Source of the DNA: Sedimentisphaerales bacterium | GTDB taxonomy: Bacteria > Planctomycetota > Phycisphaerae > Sedimentisphaerales > SG8-4 | DNA: 5,255 bases | Assembly (NCBI GenBank): GCA_016932895.1 | Contig: JAFGCA010000673.1 | Coordinates: 1-5,255 of the forward strand | Reading direction: 5' to 3' | In this document: one piece after another, positions 1 to 5,255 of the stretch | How the letters are laid out: the number at the start of each line of letters is the position of its first letter | How positions within the stretch are numbered: position 1 is the stretch's first letter | Position numbers and translations under genes: made by a program | Notes under the pieces: model-generated | Seen by the model: the letters and a program-made list of their open reading frames with translations, nothing else | Database searches by the model: none | What the model was told of the DNA's origin: nothing

Positions 1-109
1 CGCGGGCGTGGAAAGCGTACTGCGACGCCACGCCTCGAACATTGTCACCTGTGAAAACTGCTCCCGTATTCTGTACATCCCGAAGGAAGAACCTGAGGAA
101 GCAGAATAA
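1..109 (+). CDS. C-terminal end of a C4 zinc-ribbon protein (DUF164/CdsZ-like), partial
   Basis: The reading frame is open from the window edge (first full codon at 2) to TAA at 107-109, leaving 35 residues of the C-terminus. It contains CENCSRILYIP, in which one CxxC pair (codons at 50-52 and 59-61) is followed by R-I-L-Y. This is how the second half of the zinc ribbon ends in DUF164/CdsZ-type proteins, which have a long N-terminal coiled coil and a C-terminal four-cysteine zinc ribbon. The first CxxC pair and the coiled coil would lie upstream, outside the window. An acidic tail (EEPEEAE) follows the motif. About 290 bases separate it from the riboswitch, so it probably belongs to a different transcription unit from the fluoride operon. 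The family call rests on a short segment only. Confidence 0.75.
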   Translation, partial: AGVESVLRRHASNIVTCENCSRILYIPKEEPEEAE

Positions 110-362
110 AGGTTCCAGAGGTCAGCCTGGAAACCAGAACAGTGGCGATGTGAGCGGGGCAGGAAGGAGAATTGGCGCGTGTGAAGGACTGTCTCGGGGT
201 GAAAAAGGGACAGATTCCTTTATGAAGCTCACCGAAGTGGGAGACGGGGAGGAGAATCGAATCACAAGTACCCCCACGTCTTTTCCAGGTCGTAGCCAAG
301 TTGCCGCAATCCTGAAAGGATTGAGTTGCGAGTCTTCGGGTAGACTCAGCGAATTCAGTCTA
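110..362. other. intergenic stretch with small hairpins, no convincing gene
   Basis: No convincing coding signal is visible here. Open frames crossing the stretch have no recognisable motif, and one overlaps the zinc-ribbon gene out of frame. Several inverted repeats can be seen: GGTTCCAG (111-118) with CTGGAAACC (127-135, one bulge); CTGTC (189-193) with GACAG (209-213); CAATCC (307-312) with GGATTG (318-323), loop of five; and GAGTCT (330-335) with AGACTC (342-347), loop of six. None is followed by a T-run, so none is a standard intrinsic terminator. I looked for hallmarks of RNase P RNA, tmRNA and SRP RNA and did not find them. The stretch may hold the 3' untranslated region of the zinc-ribbon gene plus the upstream part of the operon promoter. 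Confidence 0.5.
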
Positions 363-392
363 TTGGCACGGGCCGGAAAGAGACAGTAGCGT
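363..392 (+). promoter_or_regulatory. weak candidate promoter for the fluoride operon
   Basis: TTGGCA (363-368) resembles a -35 box. It lies 18 bases from TAGCGT (387-392), a poor -10 box with 3 of 6 consensus bases. Initiation would then fall at about 399-401, just upstream of the first aptamer stem at 405, which is where a riboswitch leader should start. Location supports the call more than sequence does. A different sigma factor or another start point is possible. Confidence 0.25.
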
Positions 393-401
393 ACAGACCA
401 T

Positions 402-458
402 TGTGGGGATGGAGTCCCCCTTGATAACTGCCCGGGCCGGGCTGATGACTCCTACCGC
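402..458 (+). promoter_or_regulatory. fluoride riboswitch aptamer (crcB motif)
   Basis: The aptamer follows the fluoride-riboswitch plan closely. GGGG (405-408), AT, GGAGTC (411-416) and CCCC (417-420) form the first hairpin, with GGAGTC in its loop. A linker ending AACT leads to a second stem, GCCC (430-433) with GGGC (439-442), and then TGAT, GACTCC (447-452) and TAC. The loop GGAGTC is fully complementary to GACTCC, giving the pseudoknot that defines this class, and the GCTGATGACTCCTAC end is its most conserved segment. The class binds fluoride through Mg2+ ions and usually turns on fluoride-tolerance genes. Downstream genes include two known regulon types, a cation/proton antiporter and enolase, which independently supports the call. 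A terminator at 504-524 points to control of transcription. Confidence 0.95.
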
Positions 459-470
459 GCAGGTTTCTGT

Positions 471-497
471 GGCGGCAGGGGTCGTTACCATGCCGCC
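471..497 (+). promoter_or_regulatory. hairpin in the riboswitch expression platform
   Basis: GGCGGCA (471-477) pairs with TGCCGCC (491-497), a 7-bp stem with a 13-base loop between the aptamer and the terminator. Parts of it can pair elsewhere. GCGG (472-475) also matches CCGC just after the aptamer (455-458) and CCGC in the 5' arm of the terminator (504-507). These mutually exclusive pairings are what a ligand-controlled antiterminator needs, but which fold forms with and without fluoride cannot be settled by eye. Confidence 0.5.
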
Positions 498-503
498 AAG
501 AAT

Positions 504-524
504 CCGCTGCAAAGCGGTTTTTTT
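504..524 (+). terminator. intrinsic terminator of the fluoride riboswitch
   Basis: CCGCT (504-508) and AGCGG (513-517) form a 5-bp GC-rich stem closed by the GNRA-type loop GCAA (509-512). Seven T residues (518-524) follow at once. It sits between the fluoride aptamer and the first gene of the operon, so it is most likely the regulated attenuator: termination without fluoride, read-through when the aptamer is bound. The first start codon lies 47 bases further on. Confidence 0.85.
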
Positions 525-555
525 GTGCCTGCGAGACGGCCCGGGAGCTTTCAGG

Positions 556-563
556 AAAGGAGG
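556..563 (+). promoter_or_regulatory. strong ribosome binding site of the antiporter gene
   Basis: AAAGGAGG ends 8 bases before the GTG at 572. This near-perfect Shine-Dalgarno sequence decides the start in favour of GTG, since no ATG is available at a suitable distance in this frame. It lies well downstream of the terminator and is not visibly sequestered by the aptamer, which fits control of transcription rather than of translation. Confidence 0.85.
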
Positions 564-571
564 ACTCTATT

Positions 572-1777
572 GTGGAACAGATTTTCGCTACGGCTTCCCT
601 TTGGCTTGGATTGGCTGTCATCTCTGCAATCGTCGCCTATCACCTGCGCATATCCATAGCGCTGGTTGAAATCTGCGTGGGTGTAGTTACCGCCGCCGTG
701 GCCGCTCACCTCGGCAGGACAGAAGACTTGGGTTCGAATCAGGAATGGCTGCGTTTCCTGGCGTCATCGGGCGCCGTGTTGCTGACTTTCCTGGCAGGCG
801 CCGAGCTTGAAGCCGAGGTGATTCGAAGGAAGTTGAAAGAGGTCACCGTCGTCGGCTTAGTCGGTTTCTTCGCGCCCTTTCTCGGCTGCACGGCAATCGC
901 ACATTATGCGTTGGGTTGGGGTCTCCGTGCCAGCTTACTTTGTGGAGTGGCGCTGTCCACCACCTCGATGGCGGTTGTGTACGCGGTAATGCTGGAAACA
1001 GGCTTCAACAAGACCGAATTCGGCAAGGGCATTCTGGGAGCTTGCTTCATCAATGATCTTGGGACGGTCATCGCGCTGGGTTTGTTGTTTGCGCCATTCA
1101 CGTACAAGACCCTCGTCTTCATTGCCGTGACAAGTCTTGTTTTGGTGATGCTGCCGATTATGACTCGCTGGCTGACTCGAATCTATGCCTACCGCACCGC
1201 GGCGATCCGAACCAAATGGCTGGTTCTATCGCTTTTCGGCTTGGGCGCGCTCGCGCTTTGGTCGGGCAGCGAAGCGGTTCTTCCCGCCTATCTCGTCGGC
1301 ATGGTGCTTGCCGAATTCTCAAATGGGGATGACCTTTGGATTCGGCGGCTTCGAACCTTGACCCTCGGCTTTCTCACCCCTTTCTATTTTCTTCGCGCGG
1401 GAACGTTCGTTTCTTTGCCGGCGCTGGTGTCGGCGCCGACTGTTTTCCTGGCATTGGTAGCAGGCAAGGTGCTATCGAAAATCTTCGGACTGCATCCATT
1501 CATCGGGCTATTCCGGCGACAACACGATGAGCGTTGGTATTACACCTTGATGATGTCCACAGGACTGACATTTGGGACAATATCAGCCCTTTATGGGCTT
1601 TCCCATAACATCGTGTCCCAGGAACAGTATTCCTTCTTGGTGGCGGTGGTCATTACGAGCGCTGTCGTTCCCACTCTCATCGCTGGCCTTGCTTTTCTTC
1701 CCCGGCATCTCTTGCCGACCCCGGGCAAGCTGGTAAAGGCAGTGCCTGGGGAAGAGGGCTTGAGCGAAGAGGGATGA
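572..1777 (+). CDS. CPA-family cation/proton antiporter (Na_H_Exchanger domain), fluoride-regulated
   Basis: This 401-residue integral membrane protein is built of hydrophobic segments throughout, roughly 11 to 13 helices by eye. Family features are TTSMAVVYAVM (130-140), the paired N161-D162 in a membrane segment (CFINDLGTVIALG) where these antiporters bind and exchange ions, LPAYLVGMVLAEF (237-249), TPFYFLRAG (269-277) and MSTGLTFGTISALYG (328-342). The Asn-Asp pair resembles electroneutral CPA1-type exchangers rather than the Asp-Asp of electrogenic ones. The protein has a short charged C-tail and no TrkA-N or universal-stress domain. GTG is the start because AAAGGAGG lies 8 bases upstream. 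As first gene after the fluoride riboswitch it fits the Na+/H+ antiporters known in such regulons. Its substrate is not shown by sequence: it could relieve HF-driven acidification or move fluoride itself. Family is confident, substrate is inferred. Confidence 0.88.
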   Translation: MEQIFATASLWLGLAVISAIVAYHLRISIALVEICVGVVTAAVAAHLGRTEDLGSNQEWLRFLASSGAVLLTFLAGAELEAEVIRRKLKEVTVVGLVGFFAPFLGCTAIAHYALGWGLRASLLCGVALSTTSMAVVYAVMLETGFNKTEFGKGILGACFINDLGTVIALGLLFAPFTYKTLVFIAVTSLVLVMLPIMTRWLTRIYAYRTAAIRTKWLVLSLFGLGALALWSGSEAVLPAYLVGMVLAEFSNGDDLWIRRLRTLTLGFLTPFYFLRAGTFVSLPALVSAPTVFLALVAGKVLSKIFGLHPFIGLFRRQHDERWYYTLMMSTGLTFGTISALYGLSHNIVSQEQYSFLVAVVITSAVVPTLIAGLAFLPRHLLPTPGKLVKAVPGEEGLSEEG

Positions 1778-1932
1778 CGCGGTATGAGGCCGTCGGCAAC
1801 GGCCGGAACGACCTGCCCATGATCAAGCTGGCGGGCGCAGCCATCGGGAGGATCGGGCGTAAGGAAGCCGTCACTGAATTGCTCGCGACGTGGATGCGGT
1901 GGTGTGAGGTGCCCGCGACGCACAGGACTTGA
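1774..1932 (+). pseudogene. small ORF resembling the C-terminal motif of a HAD-superfamily phosphatase, probable remnant
   Basis: This 52-codon frame starts at ATG 1774, overlapping the antiporter stop as ATGA, and ends at TGA 1930-1932, 44 bases before the enolase start. Near its start it reads YEAVGNGRNDLPMIKLAGAAIG, which matches HAD motif IV (G-[DN]-G-x-N-D-x-x-M) with the usual following A-G-x-x-I-G strand, as in soluble P-type-ATPase-like and Cof-type phosphatases. The HAD nucleophile motif DxD, motif II and the cap are absent, and upstream sequence in this frame lies inside the antiporter gene. It therefore cannot be a complete phosphatase. The simplest reading is the 3' remnant of a HAD gene lost by deletion; a real translationally coupled small protein is the alternative. 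No usable Shine-Dalgarno spacing is seen (GAGGG directly precedes the ATG). Confidence 0.5.
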
Positions 1933-1963
1933 CAGCCAAGGTGCATTCCGGAAAACAGAAAAG

Positions 1964-1969
1964 AAAGGA
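1964..1969 (+). promoter_or_regulatory. ribosome binding site deciding the enolase start
   Basis: AAAGGA lies 7 bases before ATG 1977. An in-frame TTG at 1929 would add 16 residues rich in Lys, Gln and Glu that enolases do not have. The site plus the normal enolase N-terminus select 1977. Confidence 0.75.
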
Positions 1970-1976
1970 ACAGGAA

Positions 1977-3257
1977 ATGGAAGCAGCGGTCAAATTCATC
2001 AGCGTAATGGAGATTCTGGACTCTCGAGGCAACCCCACCGTGCGGGTATCCTGCACGCTCACGAACGGTATGACGGCCTCCGCGTCCGTGCCGTCCGGGG
2101 CCTCGACGGGCGAAAACGAGGCGGTCGAACTGCGCGATGGTGATAAAAAGCGCTACGGCGGCAAGGGTGTCTTGACGGCGGTCAAGAATGTCAACGAGAT
2201 CATTGCGCCACGTGTTATCGGCATGGATCCATCCCGCCAGGGGGAGATTGATCGGCTGATGATCGAGTTGGACGGCACGCCCAACAAGGGCAAGCTGGGG
2301 GCCAACGCAATCCTGGGTGTCTCGATGGCCGTGGCCCGAGCGGCAGCCGCGACGGCGGGCCTTCCCCTGTACGCTTACCTCGGCGGCGTCGGGGCGATGC
2401 GGTTGCCCGTGCCGATGCTGAACATCCTCAACGGCGGCAAGCACGCCGACAACAGCGTGGACCTTCAGGAGTTTATGGTCATGCCGATTGGCGCCCCGAA
2501 CTTCGCCGAGGCCTTGCGATACGGCGCCGAGACATTCCATGCTCTCAAGAAAATCCTCGCCAAGAAGGGGTACGCCACCAGCGTCGGAGACGAGGGCGGT
2601 TTTGCTCCCAATCTCAAAAGCAACGAGGAGGCGTGCGAGGTGATCGTCGAAGCCATCGAGGCCGCAGGCTATCAACCCGGCAAGGACGTGGCCATCGCCT
2701 TGGACCCGGCCGCCAGCTCCTTCTTCGAAGACGGCATCTATGTCCTCGCCAAGTCTGGCCAGGGTAAGAAGACCAGTGCCGAGATGACCGCGCTGTACAA
2801 GCAGTGGCTCGCCAAGTATCCCATCGTCTCCATCGAGGACGGCTTGGGGGAGAACGACTGGGACGGCTTCAAGGCCCACACGGCTGAGTTGGGCGGCATG
2901 ACCCAGATTGTCGGCGATGACCTGTATGTCACGAACACAAAATTCATCGCCCGCGGCATCGCCGAGCGGTCCACCAATGCCGTTCTCATCAAGCTCAACC
3001 AGATTGGCACCGTTACGGAGACCATCGAGGCCATCGAGATGTGTCGCAAGGCTGGCTGGGGCTATGTAATATCCCATCGCTCCGGCGAGACCGAAGACAC
3101 CTTCATGGCGGATTTCGCGGTGGCAATGGGCGGCGGACAGATCAAAACCGGCTCGGCCTGCCGCAGCGAGAGGGTCGCCAAATACAATCGGCTCCTGGAG
3201 ATCGAGGCGGAGTTGGGAACAGCAGCGGTTTTCACCAACCCGCTGGCGAGAGCTTGA
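1977..3257 (+). CDS. eno: enolase (phosphopyruvate hydratase), in a fluoride-riboswitch operon
   Basis: Enolase converts 2-phosphoglycerate to phosphoenolpyruvate in glycolysis, using Mg2+, in the cytoplasm. The 426-residue product is full length (family about 430). Visible landmarks are the substrate loop PSGASTG (39-45), GGKHADN with His156, QEF with Glu165, and GDEGGFAPN with catalytic Glu206. The Mg ligands are Asp243, Glu287 (SIEDGL) and Asp314 (VGDDLYVTN). Catalytic Lys339 (LIKLNQIG), the SHRSGETED signature (366-374) and Lys390 (IKTGS) are also present, so it should be active. Around Asp243 it reads LDPAASSFF, where many enolases have a Glu before the last two aromatics. Enolase is a classic fluoride target and a known member of fluoride-riboswitch regulons, so this copy is probably a fluoride-induced supplement. 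Whether it is the only enolase gene in the genome cannot be seen here. Confidence 0.96.
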
Positions 3258-3339
3258 CGAAAACCCGTCTTCAGGCGCCTGCGAACGATCGCGACAAGCG
3301 AGCCAACGGCGCCGCGACTCGTTCATGGAGAAGCCTCCG

Positions 3340-3858
3340 ATGCGACGACCAAAGGCTGATGCCATTAGCGACAATCATCGGCGCAGCATTTCCAACACCC
3401 TGGGATTGCTGGATGAGAGGCTCTGTCGCTTCGAGCGATGGGCCAAGGGCTTAACCGCAGAAGCGCCGCTTTACCGGGAACGCGACGACCTGGATGAAAG
3501 TCAAAAACAGGCCATACTCGCGCAGATTTTCGCGGCGCGCGCCACTCTCGGCCACATGCGAGAGGAGTTCGGGCTCGACCAGCAACAAGCCAGCATAACG
3601 AAGCTCATCGCATCCCAATGCGATTGGTTCTGGGAGTTTCTGGTCCAATTGGAGTCCAAGCAGCTCAACCGGTACGGGGAGGTGCCCGCTGGCTTCGCCG
3701 CCTGCTTCGACCCGAAAGTCAAATTCCTGATCAAGTGTCTCGAGGCAATCTCCGGGATAGCCCGCCGCGCTGCAGGGCACGAAGGAATACCACAAGCGTC
3801 CCGCACCGGGGAAACAGCGAACAGAGAGATTTGCGATGAGAAGGAGAAGCCCCGCTGA
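3340..3858 (+). CDS. uncharacterised soluble helical protein (172 aa)
   Basis: I do not recognise this family. The product has no signal peptide or membrane segment and appears largely alpha-helical. Visible parts are SNTLGLLDERLCRFERWAKG (18-37), LYRERDDLDESQKQAILAQI (44-63), a helix-rich middle, ASQCDWFWEFLVQLE (91-105) with two Trp and two Phe, RYGEVPAGFAACFDPKV (111-127), and a polar, probably disordered tail after about 145. No metal-binding or nucleotide-binding motif is evident. ATG 3340 is chosen because GGAG (3327-3330) lies 9 bases upstream; an in-frame ATG at 3325 would add five residues but has no such site. The gene follows enolase by 82 bases and overlaps the transporter gene by 23 bases, so it is probably co-transcribed and coupled to it. 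Its role, perhaps regulatory or as a partner of the transporter or enolase, is unknown. Confidence 0.75.
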   Translation: MRRPKADAISDNHRRSISNTLGLLDERLCRFERWAKGLTAEAPLYRERDDLDESQKQAILAQIFAARATLGHMREEFGLDQQQASITKLIASQCDWFWEFLVQLESKQLNRYGEVPAGFAACFDPKVKFLIKCLEAISGIARRAAGHEGIPQASRTGETANREICDEKEKPR

Positions 3859-5071
3859 CGGGCACGAACTGCCGGAGGATGCCTTGCGGCCGCCTCCGGC
3901 TCTTGGGCATCCCCGTACTGCTCTGAAATTCGTAGTTCTTCTCGGCGTTGTCAGCCTATTCGCCGATTTGACATACGAGGGGGCCCGAAGTGCCGTCGGC
4001 CGCTATCTTGGGATTTTGGGCGCGAGCGCTGCCGCTGTCGGGATCGTGGCCGGGTTGGGGGAATTGGTCGGTTATGCCCTTCGCCTCGTTTCCGGATACC
4101 TCAGCGACCGCACCGGACGGTACTGGGCCATCACGATTACGGGGTACACCGTGAATCTCCTCGCTGTCCCGCTGCTTGCCCTCGCAAGACGGTGGGAGCT
4201 GGCTGCCGCCCTGATCATTCTGGAGCGGATAGGTAAGGCGCTTCGCACCCCGGCGCGTGACGCAATGCTCTCCCATGCTACGGGCAGCATGGGGCGAGGC
4301 TGGGCGTTCGGCCTGCACGAGGCGCTTGATCAGGTGGGGGCAGTGCTGGGGCCGCTCGTTGTGGCGGCCGTTCTATACGCCGGTGGCGGTTACCGCACCG
4401 GGTTCGCCATACTTCTCGCGCCCGGGTTAGTGGCCCTGGCTGTGCTTATCGCCGCGCGTCGGCTCTACCCACGCCCGCAAGATCTGGAGATGGAGACCTC
4501 TACGCTGCACATTCAGGGAATGAGCCGCTTGTTCTGGCTCTATCTGGCAGGGGTTGCGTTGATTGCTGCCGGTTTTGCCGACTTTCCGCTCATTGCGTTC
4601 CACTTTGGTCGGGCAGGGGTCGTGTCTGAGGTCTGGATTCCCACCTTGTATGCTGTCGCCATGGGCGCGGATGCGATCTCTGCGCTTGTCTTCGGGCGGC
4701 TTTTCGACCGTCTGGGATTTCGGATGCTCCTGCTGGCAACGGTCCTGTCGGCGCTGGTTGCTCCTCTGGTCTTTCTGGGTGACTTCTATGCGGCGCTGCT
4801 TGGCATGGGGCTCTGGGGCATCGGTATGGGCGCGCAGGAGTCGATCATGCGGGCAGCCGTAGCCAGCATGGCAACCCGGCAGCGCCGCGGCACAGCTTAT
4901 GGGATCTTCAACACGGGTTATGGTTTGGCCTGGTTCCTGGGAAGCGCCCTCATGGGAATACTCTATAATCTATCACTTCCGGCACTCATCGCCTTCTCGG
5001 TCGGTGTTCAGTTGCTGTCGCTGCCCCTTATGCTTATGGTTGCCAGGCGCCAGACCCAAATGGAGAGGTGA
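3836..5071 (+). CDS. major facilitator superfamily transporter, last gene of the fluoride operon
   Basis: This is a 411-residue, about 12-helix inner-membrane transporter with two homologous halves. The N-terminal 27 residues are cytoplasmic and polar. The first helix region ends in FADLTYEGARSAVGRYL (42-58). Loop motif A appears in the first half as GYLSDRTGRYW (87-97) and in the second as GRLFDRLGFRM (287-297). Between them lie ERIGKALRTPARDAML (130-145), GWAFGLHEALDQVGAVLGPL (155-174) and a central loop at about 208-232. The DLTYEGAR and GLHEALDQ segments suggest a well-defined MFS subfamily whose substrate I cannot name. The ATG at 3836 overlaps the preceding gene by 23 bases with only an AGAGAG purine run upstream, suggesting translational coupling. 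Position in a fluoride-switched operon suggests export of fluoride, or of a metabolite that accumulates under fluoride stress; this is inference. Confidence 0.88.
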   Translation: MRRRSPADGHELPEDALRPPPALGHPRTALKFVVLLGVVSLFADLTYEGARSAVGRYLGILGASAAAVGIVAGLGELVGYALRLVSGYLSDRTGRYWAITITGYTVNLLAVPLLALARRWELAAALIILERIGKALRTPARDAMLSHATGSMGRGWAFGLHEALDQVGAVLGPLVVAAVLYAGGGYRTGFAILLAPGLVALAVLIAARRLYPRPQDLEMETSTLHIQGMSRLFWLYLAGVALIAAGFADFPLIAFHFGRAGVVSEVWIPTLYAVAMGADAISALVFGRLFDRLGFRMLLLATVLSALVAPLVFLGDFYAALLGMGLWGIGMGAQESIMRAAVASMATRQRRGTAYGIFNTGYGLAWFLGSALMGILYNLSLPALIAFSVGVQLLSLPLMLMVARRQTQMER

Positions 5072-5102
5072 TACACGGGCAGAACTTTTGGCTGATAAGA
5101 TA

Positions 5103-5131
5103 TTGACCCCAGGGGCAGTCAGTGGTAAACT
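5103..5131 (+). promoter_or_regulatory. candidate sigma70-type promoter downstream of the operon
   Basis: TTGACC (5103-5108) matches 5 of 6 bases of the -35 consensus and is spaced 17 bases from TAAACT (5126-5131), which matches 4 of 6 of the -10 consensus. Initiation would be near 5138. The spacer holds CCCCAGGGG inside a longer imperfect inverted repeat, TGAC...GTCA (5104-5121), which could be an operator. It would drive the next gene, whose start lies beyond the window. No T-tailed terminator is visible between the MFS stop codon and this site. Confidence 0.5.
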
Positions 5132-5248
5132 CTTTAATAGGATTTGGTAGAGAGCCAGTCAACAGGTTGTTGCAGAGGAGCGGGCCGGATAGTCGCCTTT
5201 TCCTCGTGCGGGGCAGGCCCATTTGGGCTGTGCTGTCGCGGGCGGAAG

Positions 5249-5255
5249 AGGAGGA
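5249..5255 (+). promoter_or_regulatory. Shine-Dalgarno sequence at the window edge
   Basis: The window ends in AGGAGGA, a near-perfect ribosome binding site, so a + strand gene probably starts within about 10 bases beyond the edge. Together with the promoter near 5103 this gives a 5' leader of roughly 115 bases containing the short inverted repeat GCCCATTTGGGC. Confidence 0.45.

Follow-up and report, generated by a model that had tools for sequence, protein, structure and literature searches.

What does a fluoride riboswitch control when the genes behind it include no CrcB (Fluc), and what part does an unnamed protein of 172 amino acids (aa) play among those genes? These questions are raised by a stretch of 5,255 nucleotides from a Sedimentisphaerales bacterium of the Planctomycetota (assembly GCA_016932895.1, contig JAFGCA010000673.1, positions 1 to 5,255, forward strand), referred to here as the window. 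A fluoride aptamer is followed in it, on the same strand, by open reading frames (ORFs) for a cation/proton antiporter, a short possible phosphatase relic, an enolase, the 172-aa protein and a major facilitator superfamily (MFS) transporter. The 172-aa proteins are a real fluoride-regulon family: a comparison of gene neighbourhoods found relatives in 14 distinct genomes, 13 of which have the fluoride riboswitch RF01734 above cut-off upstream on the same strand. The best explanation of the whole is, very probably, a fluoride-tolerance operon under riboswitch control in which the 172-aa family is a component of the fluoride response.

Linkage of the 172-aa family to fluoride riboswitches

The original prediction, made from the sequence of the window alone, had placed a fluoride aptamer at position 402 and onward. 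The search with RF01734 that it proposed bears this out: the match is full length (model positions 1-64), begins at 396 and scores 50.6 bits against a gathering cut-off of 34.

The same switch recurs before relatives of the 172-aa gene. The family alignment was used for a pattern scan of the genome collection. It reported five loci, each preceded by RF01734 in the same orientation. These come from metagenome-assembled genomes (MAGs), one each of Sumerlaeota (genome G001), Kiritimatiellota (G003) and Chthoniobacterales and two of Spartobacteria. The scan uses short patterns and is not exhaustive, and searches by phylum added members that it did not report. In the phylum of G001 the family occurs in 4 of 40 genomes, and in that of G003, with up to 9 first-look candidates scored per genome, in at least 7 of 387, an even sample from a larger group; one genome in each set was already known. 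Matches to RF01734 under the cut-off, in G003 (contig C46, 27.8 bits) and in G008, G015 and G016 (24.3-29.6 bits), were left out of these counts. Viral contigs gave 30 pattern matches and no relatives of the 172-aa protein, and plasmids gave no tblastn match with the protein of the window; phage records, E. coli records and PHROGs lay outside the search. By eye, a serine-recombinase-like ORF lies near the relative at locus L035, in genome G154.

Gene orders were obtained from tblastn seeds at E<=1e-4 and further reading of the loci. The 172-aa gene is first behind the switch in L003, where DUF6062 follows it, and in L029, where a TPR-like gene and DUF6062 follow before the contig ends. It stands between an antiporter and a dynamin-like GTPase in L001, and behind CrcB, DUF190 and an antiporter in L002, L004, L005 and L032, the last of which continues with an MFS gene. 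The order is GTPase, antiporter, Usp, 172-aa protein in L030 and L031; GTPase, 172-aa protein in L033; and CrcB, DUF190, 172-aa protein in L034 and L037. L036 shows this last order preceded by pieces of enolase, two short pieces behind the riboswitch that appear broken or misassembled. There are thus nine gene orders among the relatives and ten with the window, so the linkage survives rearrangement, and neither chance nor one fixed inherited operon explains it.

This bears on two other explanations. According to the first, the 172-aa protein and the MFS transporter are mere passengers that happen to follow a fluoride operon, as the 82-nt gap after the enolase might suggest, together with the fact that the window is the only operon seen with a HAD-like ORF and a whole enolase between the antiporter and the 172-aa gene. 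However, the position of the 172-aa gene behind the switch in all but one of the relatives, and as first gene in L003 and L029, makes this very unlikely for the pair; for the MFS transporter alone the explanation still stands. The second takes the 172-aa protein for a regulatory antiporter subunit. Its start overlaps the antiporter stop in five loci (L001, L002, L004, L005 and L032), but six of the 14 relatives (L003, L029, L033, L034, L036 and L037) have no antiporter in their riboswitch operon, and we regard a subunit role as unlikely, if less so than the passenger explanation.

Sequence and predicted fold of the 172-aa protein

Between the window and L001, 43 first, 34 second and 74 third positions differ in the 144 codons compared; since the third position varies most, the ORF is taken as a real protein under selection. 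Searched as a single sequence it found nine proteins, itself included, and a profile of 14 members found 205. No Pfam domain is present among the 120 of these 205 matches listed. One listed match, P0064, carries the source name exopolyphosphatase/pppGpp-phosphohydrolase, and P0010, a Planctomycetota MAG protein, is the only one among those listed with a taxon in its name. The 172-aa protein itself has no significant match in Pfam (GvpK, sub-threshold, at E 0.023) and none in NCBIfam or PADLOC; when 14 members were run against Pfam, eight families came up, each for one member, with a best E of 0.0014.

An alignment of 94 rows (89 of the 120 matches listed and five from loci) shows N12, H13, R15, D25, C29, W34, Y45, R67, W98, E99, Y112 and G113 each conserved in 92-94 of the 94 members. 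The fold model built from these sequences is confident (mean pLDDT 85.4, pTM 0.67) and has helices at residues 11-35, 53-77, 86-102, 106-112 and 119-144, and no membrane segment is predicted; the protein is thus predicted to be a soluble helical bundle. Comparison of the model with the PDB gave no Foldseek match at E<=0.001, and the sequence profile matched two PDB chains, both at E 1.2. Likeness to ferritin-like, Dps-like and rubrerythrin folds was considered and rejected, as there was no Foldseek match at that threshold and Z scores lay in the range common for helical bundles.

The riboswitch and the genes of the window

Coordinates are collected in Table 1. The terminator of the original prediction was found as a hairpin with seven T. 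Terminator-like hairpins in the window do not exceed the number expected by chance (5 found, 5.7 expected), and this one carries weight because of its position. When 396-527 is folded at minimum free energy, the model draws the aptamer's 3' strand into a rival hairpin located before the terminator-like one, as would be expected of a switch choosing between two folds. In this riboswitch family fluoride binding prevents termination.

The five ORFs follow one another with a 4-nt overlap, gaps of 44 and 82 nt and a 23-nt overlap, in line with the predicted same-strand run, and may form one transcript. A promoter scan returned a single site, at 5103 after the last gene, and none before the riboswitch; hence it decides nothing on transcript structure.

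The antiporter, enolase and MFS identities of the original prediction all hold at family level. For the antiporter, PF00999 scores 101.4 bits (cut-off 26.2) over residues 14-369, and it is assigned at this level only, the CPA2 subfamily model TIGR00932 giving 90.6 bits, under its cut-off of 238.3. With the antiporter that follows the L001 riboswitch it shares 72% identity. The enolase reaches 660.9 bits with TIGR01060 (equivalog cut-off 300) and is 76% identical to that of L104, in the phylum of G001. As L001 belongs to that phylum too, these identities may point to an origin of the window there or to genes shared with it. The start of the 172-aa gene was picked because relatives P0002-P0004 start at the equivalent site.

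The predicted HAD remnant fared less well. Its 52-codon ORF contains the motif GNGRND, which we take to be a sign of a HAD phosphatase, but no family match was above cut-off (best NCBIfam match 15.8 bits against a cut-off of 137, E 0.008). A pattern search for the motif in the loci of relatives fetched by then found none, and the ORF is possibly, and at most, a short HAD relic.

At the edges of the window, positions 1-109 appear by eye to hold the tail of an upstream gene with cysteines resembling a zinc ribbon. An RNase P RNA guessed by eye to start near 5175 was not supported on checking.

Table 1. Positions of features in the window and in loci of relatives
Feature	Location	Strand	Basis
Fluoride riboswitch aptamer RF01734	Window 396-461	+	cmscan, 50.6 bits, E 3.6e-12
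Terminator-like hairpin with seven T, presumed expression platform	Window, hairpin 504-517, T run 518-524	+	
Antiporter, Na_H_Exchanger family, 401 aa	Window 572-1777	+	PF00999
Two further terminator-like sites within the antiporter gene	Window 1209-1226, 1419-1438	+	
52-codon ORF, possible HAD phosphatase C-terminal relic	Window 1774-1932	+	GNGRND motif; sub-threshold NCBIfam
Enolase, 426 aa	Window 1977-3257 (ATG 1977 most likely start)	+	TIGR01060, PF00113, PF03952
172-aa predicted soluble helical protein, unnamed family	Window 3340-3858	+	Relatives behind fluoride riboswitches; fold model
MFS transporter, 411 aa	Window 3836-5071	+	PF07690
172-aa relative of G154	L035 7540-7989		
Enolase pieces	L036 1693-2181		
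Dynamin-like GTPase	L001 9451-11169; L030 9208-11070; L031 9972-11828; L033 5418-7316; also L103, L104, L105, L107		PF00350 in six loci; L031 and L105 by tblastn likeness
DUF6062	L003 9465-10148; L029 408-1088; also L103, L104, L105, L107		PF19538 in L003, L029, L107; others by tblastn likeness
Tripartite RND efflux pump	L061 1956-7707		OEP, HlyD, AcrB domains (Pfam)
Na_H_Exchanger protein behind the second riboswitch of G394	L063 3180-4442		

Fluoride exporters in the window and in relatives

As the original prediction stated, no CrcB is encoded in the window: three CrcB seeds gave no tblastn match at E<=1e-4. For CLC the search there consisted of Pfam scanning of the named ORFs, which found none. 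Among the 14 genomes with a 172-aa relative, CrcB (PF02537) is present in nine. It lies inside the 172-aa operon in seven (G002, G004, G005, G057, G331, G341 and G394) and elsewhere in the genome in G001 and G154, where the G001 copy is a single match (domain positions 24-103) on a separate contig. The 172-aa protein is therefore often an addition to Fluc and not a substitute for it, because CrcB shares its operon in half of the relatives.

CLC proteins (PF00654) score above cut-off in eight of the 14 genomes, the set that the CLC search covered; it did not extend to the other 36 genomes of the phylum of G001. The marks of a fluoride-specific CLC are GREGT/V, GNNLI/GMGLI and GEVTP (PMC11139923, section 11). 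Nine of the ten CLC loci checked carry GREGP and no other fluoride-CLC mark sought, while the tenth (L060, in CrcB-positive G002) lacks GREGP, the only motif examined there; a G057 match under the cut-off with internal stops (L059) was left out of this check. In five of the 14 genomes (G003, G009, G010, G019 and G195), all drafts for which completeness is not given, no CrcB was found and no CLC with the fluoride-specific signature. All five have the riboswitch and the 172-aa protein, and only G195 has a CLC, of the GREGP kind.

A similar picture is seen within the phylum of G001, where the riboswitch is above cut-off in 10 of 40 genomes and CrcB is present in 23 of 40. Among the riboswitch genomes, CrcB occurs in one of the four with the 172-aa protein and in six of the six without it. 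By hand, a one-sided Fisher test of this contrast gives about 0.03, the true weight being lower since G009 and G010 seem closely related to each other. G015, with a riboswitch match under the cut-off, gave no CrcB.

An exporter-free version of fluoride tolerance is thus possible. The "different export solution" of the original prediction is supported only in part: it gains from the five relatives with neither exporter type and loses from the seven with CrcB in the operon itself. We think it rather probable that an ordinary CrcB or CLC-F is encoded elsewhere in the genome of the window and that the operon is an auxiliary set. CrcB is found in or outside the operon in most relatives and in every riboswitch genome of the phylum of G001 that lacks the 172-aa protein, and an exporter is reported in over 85% of surveyed bacterial strains in section 11 of PMC11139923. 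Set against this are L001, with the antiporter most similar to that of the window, whose genome has CrcB only as the single match noted above, and the five exporter-negative relatives. It is doubtful, and quite unlikely in our estimate, that the 172-aa protein forms the core of an exporter-independent tolerance where Fluc and CLC-F are absent, acting by target protection or capture of fluoride complexes and not by export, alone or with DUF6062, the dynamin-like GTPase or the antiporter.

The MFS transporter

The MFS transporter scores 103.7 bits with PF07690 (Pfam cut-off 33.4) and 38.7 bits with the tetracycline efflux MFS model NF012174, under its cut-off of 475. Close orthologues were defined by E<=1e-60. 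One, 52% identical, adjoins the 172-aa protein in the riboswitch operon L032, and is the only one in such an operon among at least nine found in the 387 genomes of the phylum of G003, where up to 4 first-look candidates per genome were scored. The phylum of G001 has close orthologues in 2 of 40 genomes (G009 and G010), on another contig than the 172-aa gene. In L105 and L107 the gene next to the switch encodes a distant MFS protein, 31.5% identical. MFS transporters are therefore found under the fluoride switch, but the subfamily of the window is not bound to it.

Two exporter types have so far been taken to account for fluoride export in bacteria (PMC11139923, section 11), and the MFS protein could be imagined as a third, exporting fluoride for this operon. 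Its gene closes the run in both the window and L032, and its distant relative leads the operons L105 and L107. Nevertheless, L032, L105 and L107 also contain CrcB, 10 of the 11 close orthologues have no riboswitch in the stretch fetched, and among the five exporter-negative relatives a close orthologue is present, outside the riboswitch operon, in G009 and G010 alone. We give this explanation little credence.

The MFS gene described in PMC11477304 lies under a flavin mononucleotide (FMN) riboswitch. BenE-I, a benzoate transporter that raises fluoride tolerance in Pseudomonas putida, was considered as a parallel for the MFS transporter and set aside, since its authors favour an indirect effect (PMC13104614).

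Other genes behind fluoride riboswitches

In the phylum of G001, the six riboswitch genomes that lack the 172-aa protein hold seven riboswitch loci above cut-off, all of which were read. A dynamin-like GTPase and DUF6062 lie behind the switch in four of the seven (L103, L104, L105 and L107), CrcB is on the same strand in five, and an antiporter is present in L106. Together with the loci of 172-aa relatives, the GTPase stands behind a fluoride riboswitch in eight loci; no publication joining fluoride riboswitch and dynamin was found in the literature searched. DUF6062 was seen behind riboswitches in six loci (Table 1), and co-occurs with the 172-aa family in L003 and L029.

DUF190 was seen beside CrcB behind the riboswitch in L002, L004, L005, L032, L034, L036, L037, L103, L105 and L107, sometimes in two copies (PF02641 was checked for L005 only, the rest being recognised by likeness). 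G010 and G009 each have a second riboswitch (39.1 and 35.3 bits) with genes for a tripartite RND efflux pump behind it, identified by Pfam domains in L061 and by likeness only in L062; neither genome gave CrcB or any CLC. RND genes also lie next to the fluoride operon of Enterobacter cloacae FRM, with no clear induction (0.9- and 1.4-fold) reported in PMC5533749. In G394 a further Na_H_Exchanger gene lies behind a second riboswitch.

Proposed role of the operon

In the fluoride-tolerance operon that we favour, fluoride bound by the aptamer would prevent termination at 504-524 and the downstream genes would be read. The antiporter would offset the acidification caused by entering hydrogen fluoride (HF), and the enolase would provide an extra supply of a fluoride-inhibited enzyme. 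Both are known riboswitch-linked genes with these roles (PMC11139923), which agrees with their naming as fluoride-regulon genes in the original prediction. The 172-aa protein would most likely be cytosolic and protect or adjust a fluoride-sensitive target in the cell, and not be a transporter itself. Such a role is favoured because no membrane segment is predicted for the protein, because it is found both in the presence and in the absence of CrcB, antiporter, GTPase and DUF6062, and because its gene leads some of the operons. As a less constant member, the MFS transporter probably exports a secondary product or ion. From the genomic linkage we infer that more than one phylum uses the 172-aa family in its response to fluoride.

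Several observations weigh against this proposal. The G154 genome has a 172-aa relative and no Rfam riboswitch match, and no riboswitch core motif, with up to two mismatches allowed, occurs in 16 kb around that relative. The MFS orthologues of G009 and G010 have no riboswitch in the stretches fetched, and the other eight of the phylum of G003 have none within the 8.9-14 kb retrieved around them. The fold and profile comparisons hint at no role for the 172-aa protein. The two terminator-like sites inside the antiporter gene count mildly against a single transcript.

The 172-aa protein may represent a so far unnamed part of the way bacteria cope with fluoride. A conserved, switch-linked family that sometimes occurs where neither exporter was found would offer a way into the non-export part of resistance, and the recurring dynamin-like GTPase suggests that membrane upkeep may also belong to fluoride resistance.

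Comparison with known fluoride systems

Neither the 172-aa protein nor this MFS transporter is named for fluoride regulons in the literature searched, as the original prediction had supposed. The regulons of the fluoride riboswitch (crcB motif, RF01734) likewise have an aptamer and a terminator-like hairpin before antiporter and enolase genes (PMC11139923); to these the window adds the helical protein of an unnamed family and the MFS transporter, and it has no CrcB. The fluoride operon of Clostridioides difficile (PMC11477304) resembles the window in having an NhaP-type antiporter under a fluoride riboswitch, but pairs it with a CLC, which was not seen in the Pfam scan of the named ORFs of the window. 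The Enterobacter cloacae FRM operon ppaC-uspA-eno-gpmA-crcB-orf5249 (PMC5533749) is riboswitch-led and contains enolase, as does the window, and shares a Usp gene with relatives L030 and L031. Where that operon has crcB and a pyrophosphatase, however, the window has the antiporter, the 172-aa protein and the MFS transporter instead.

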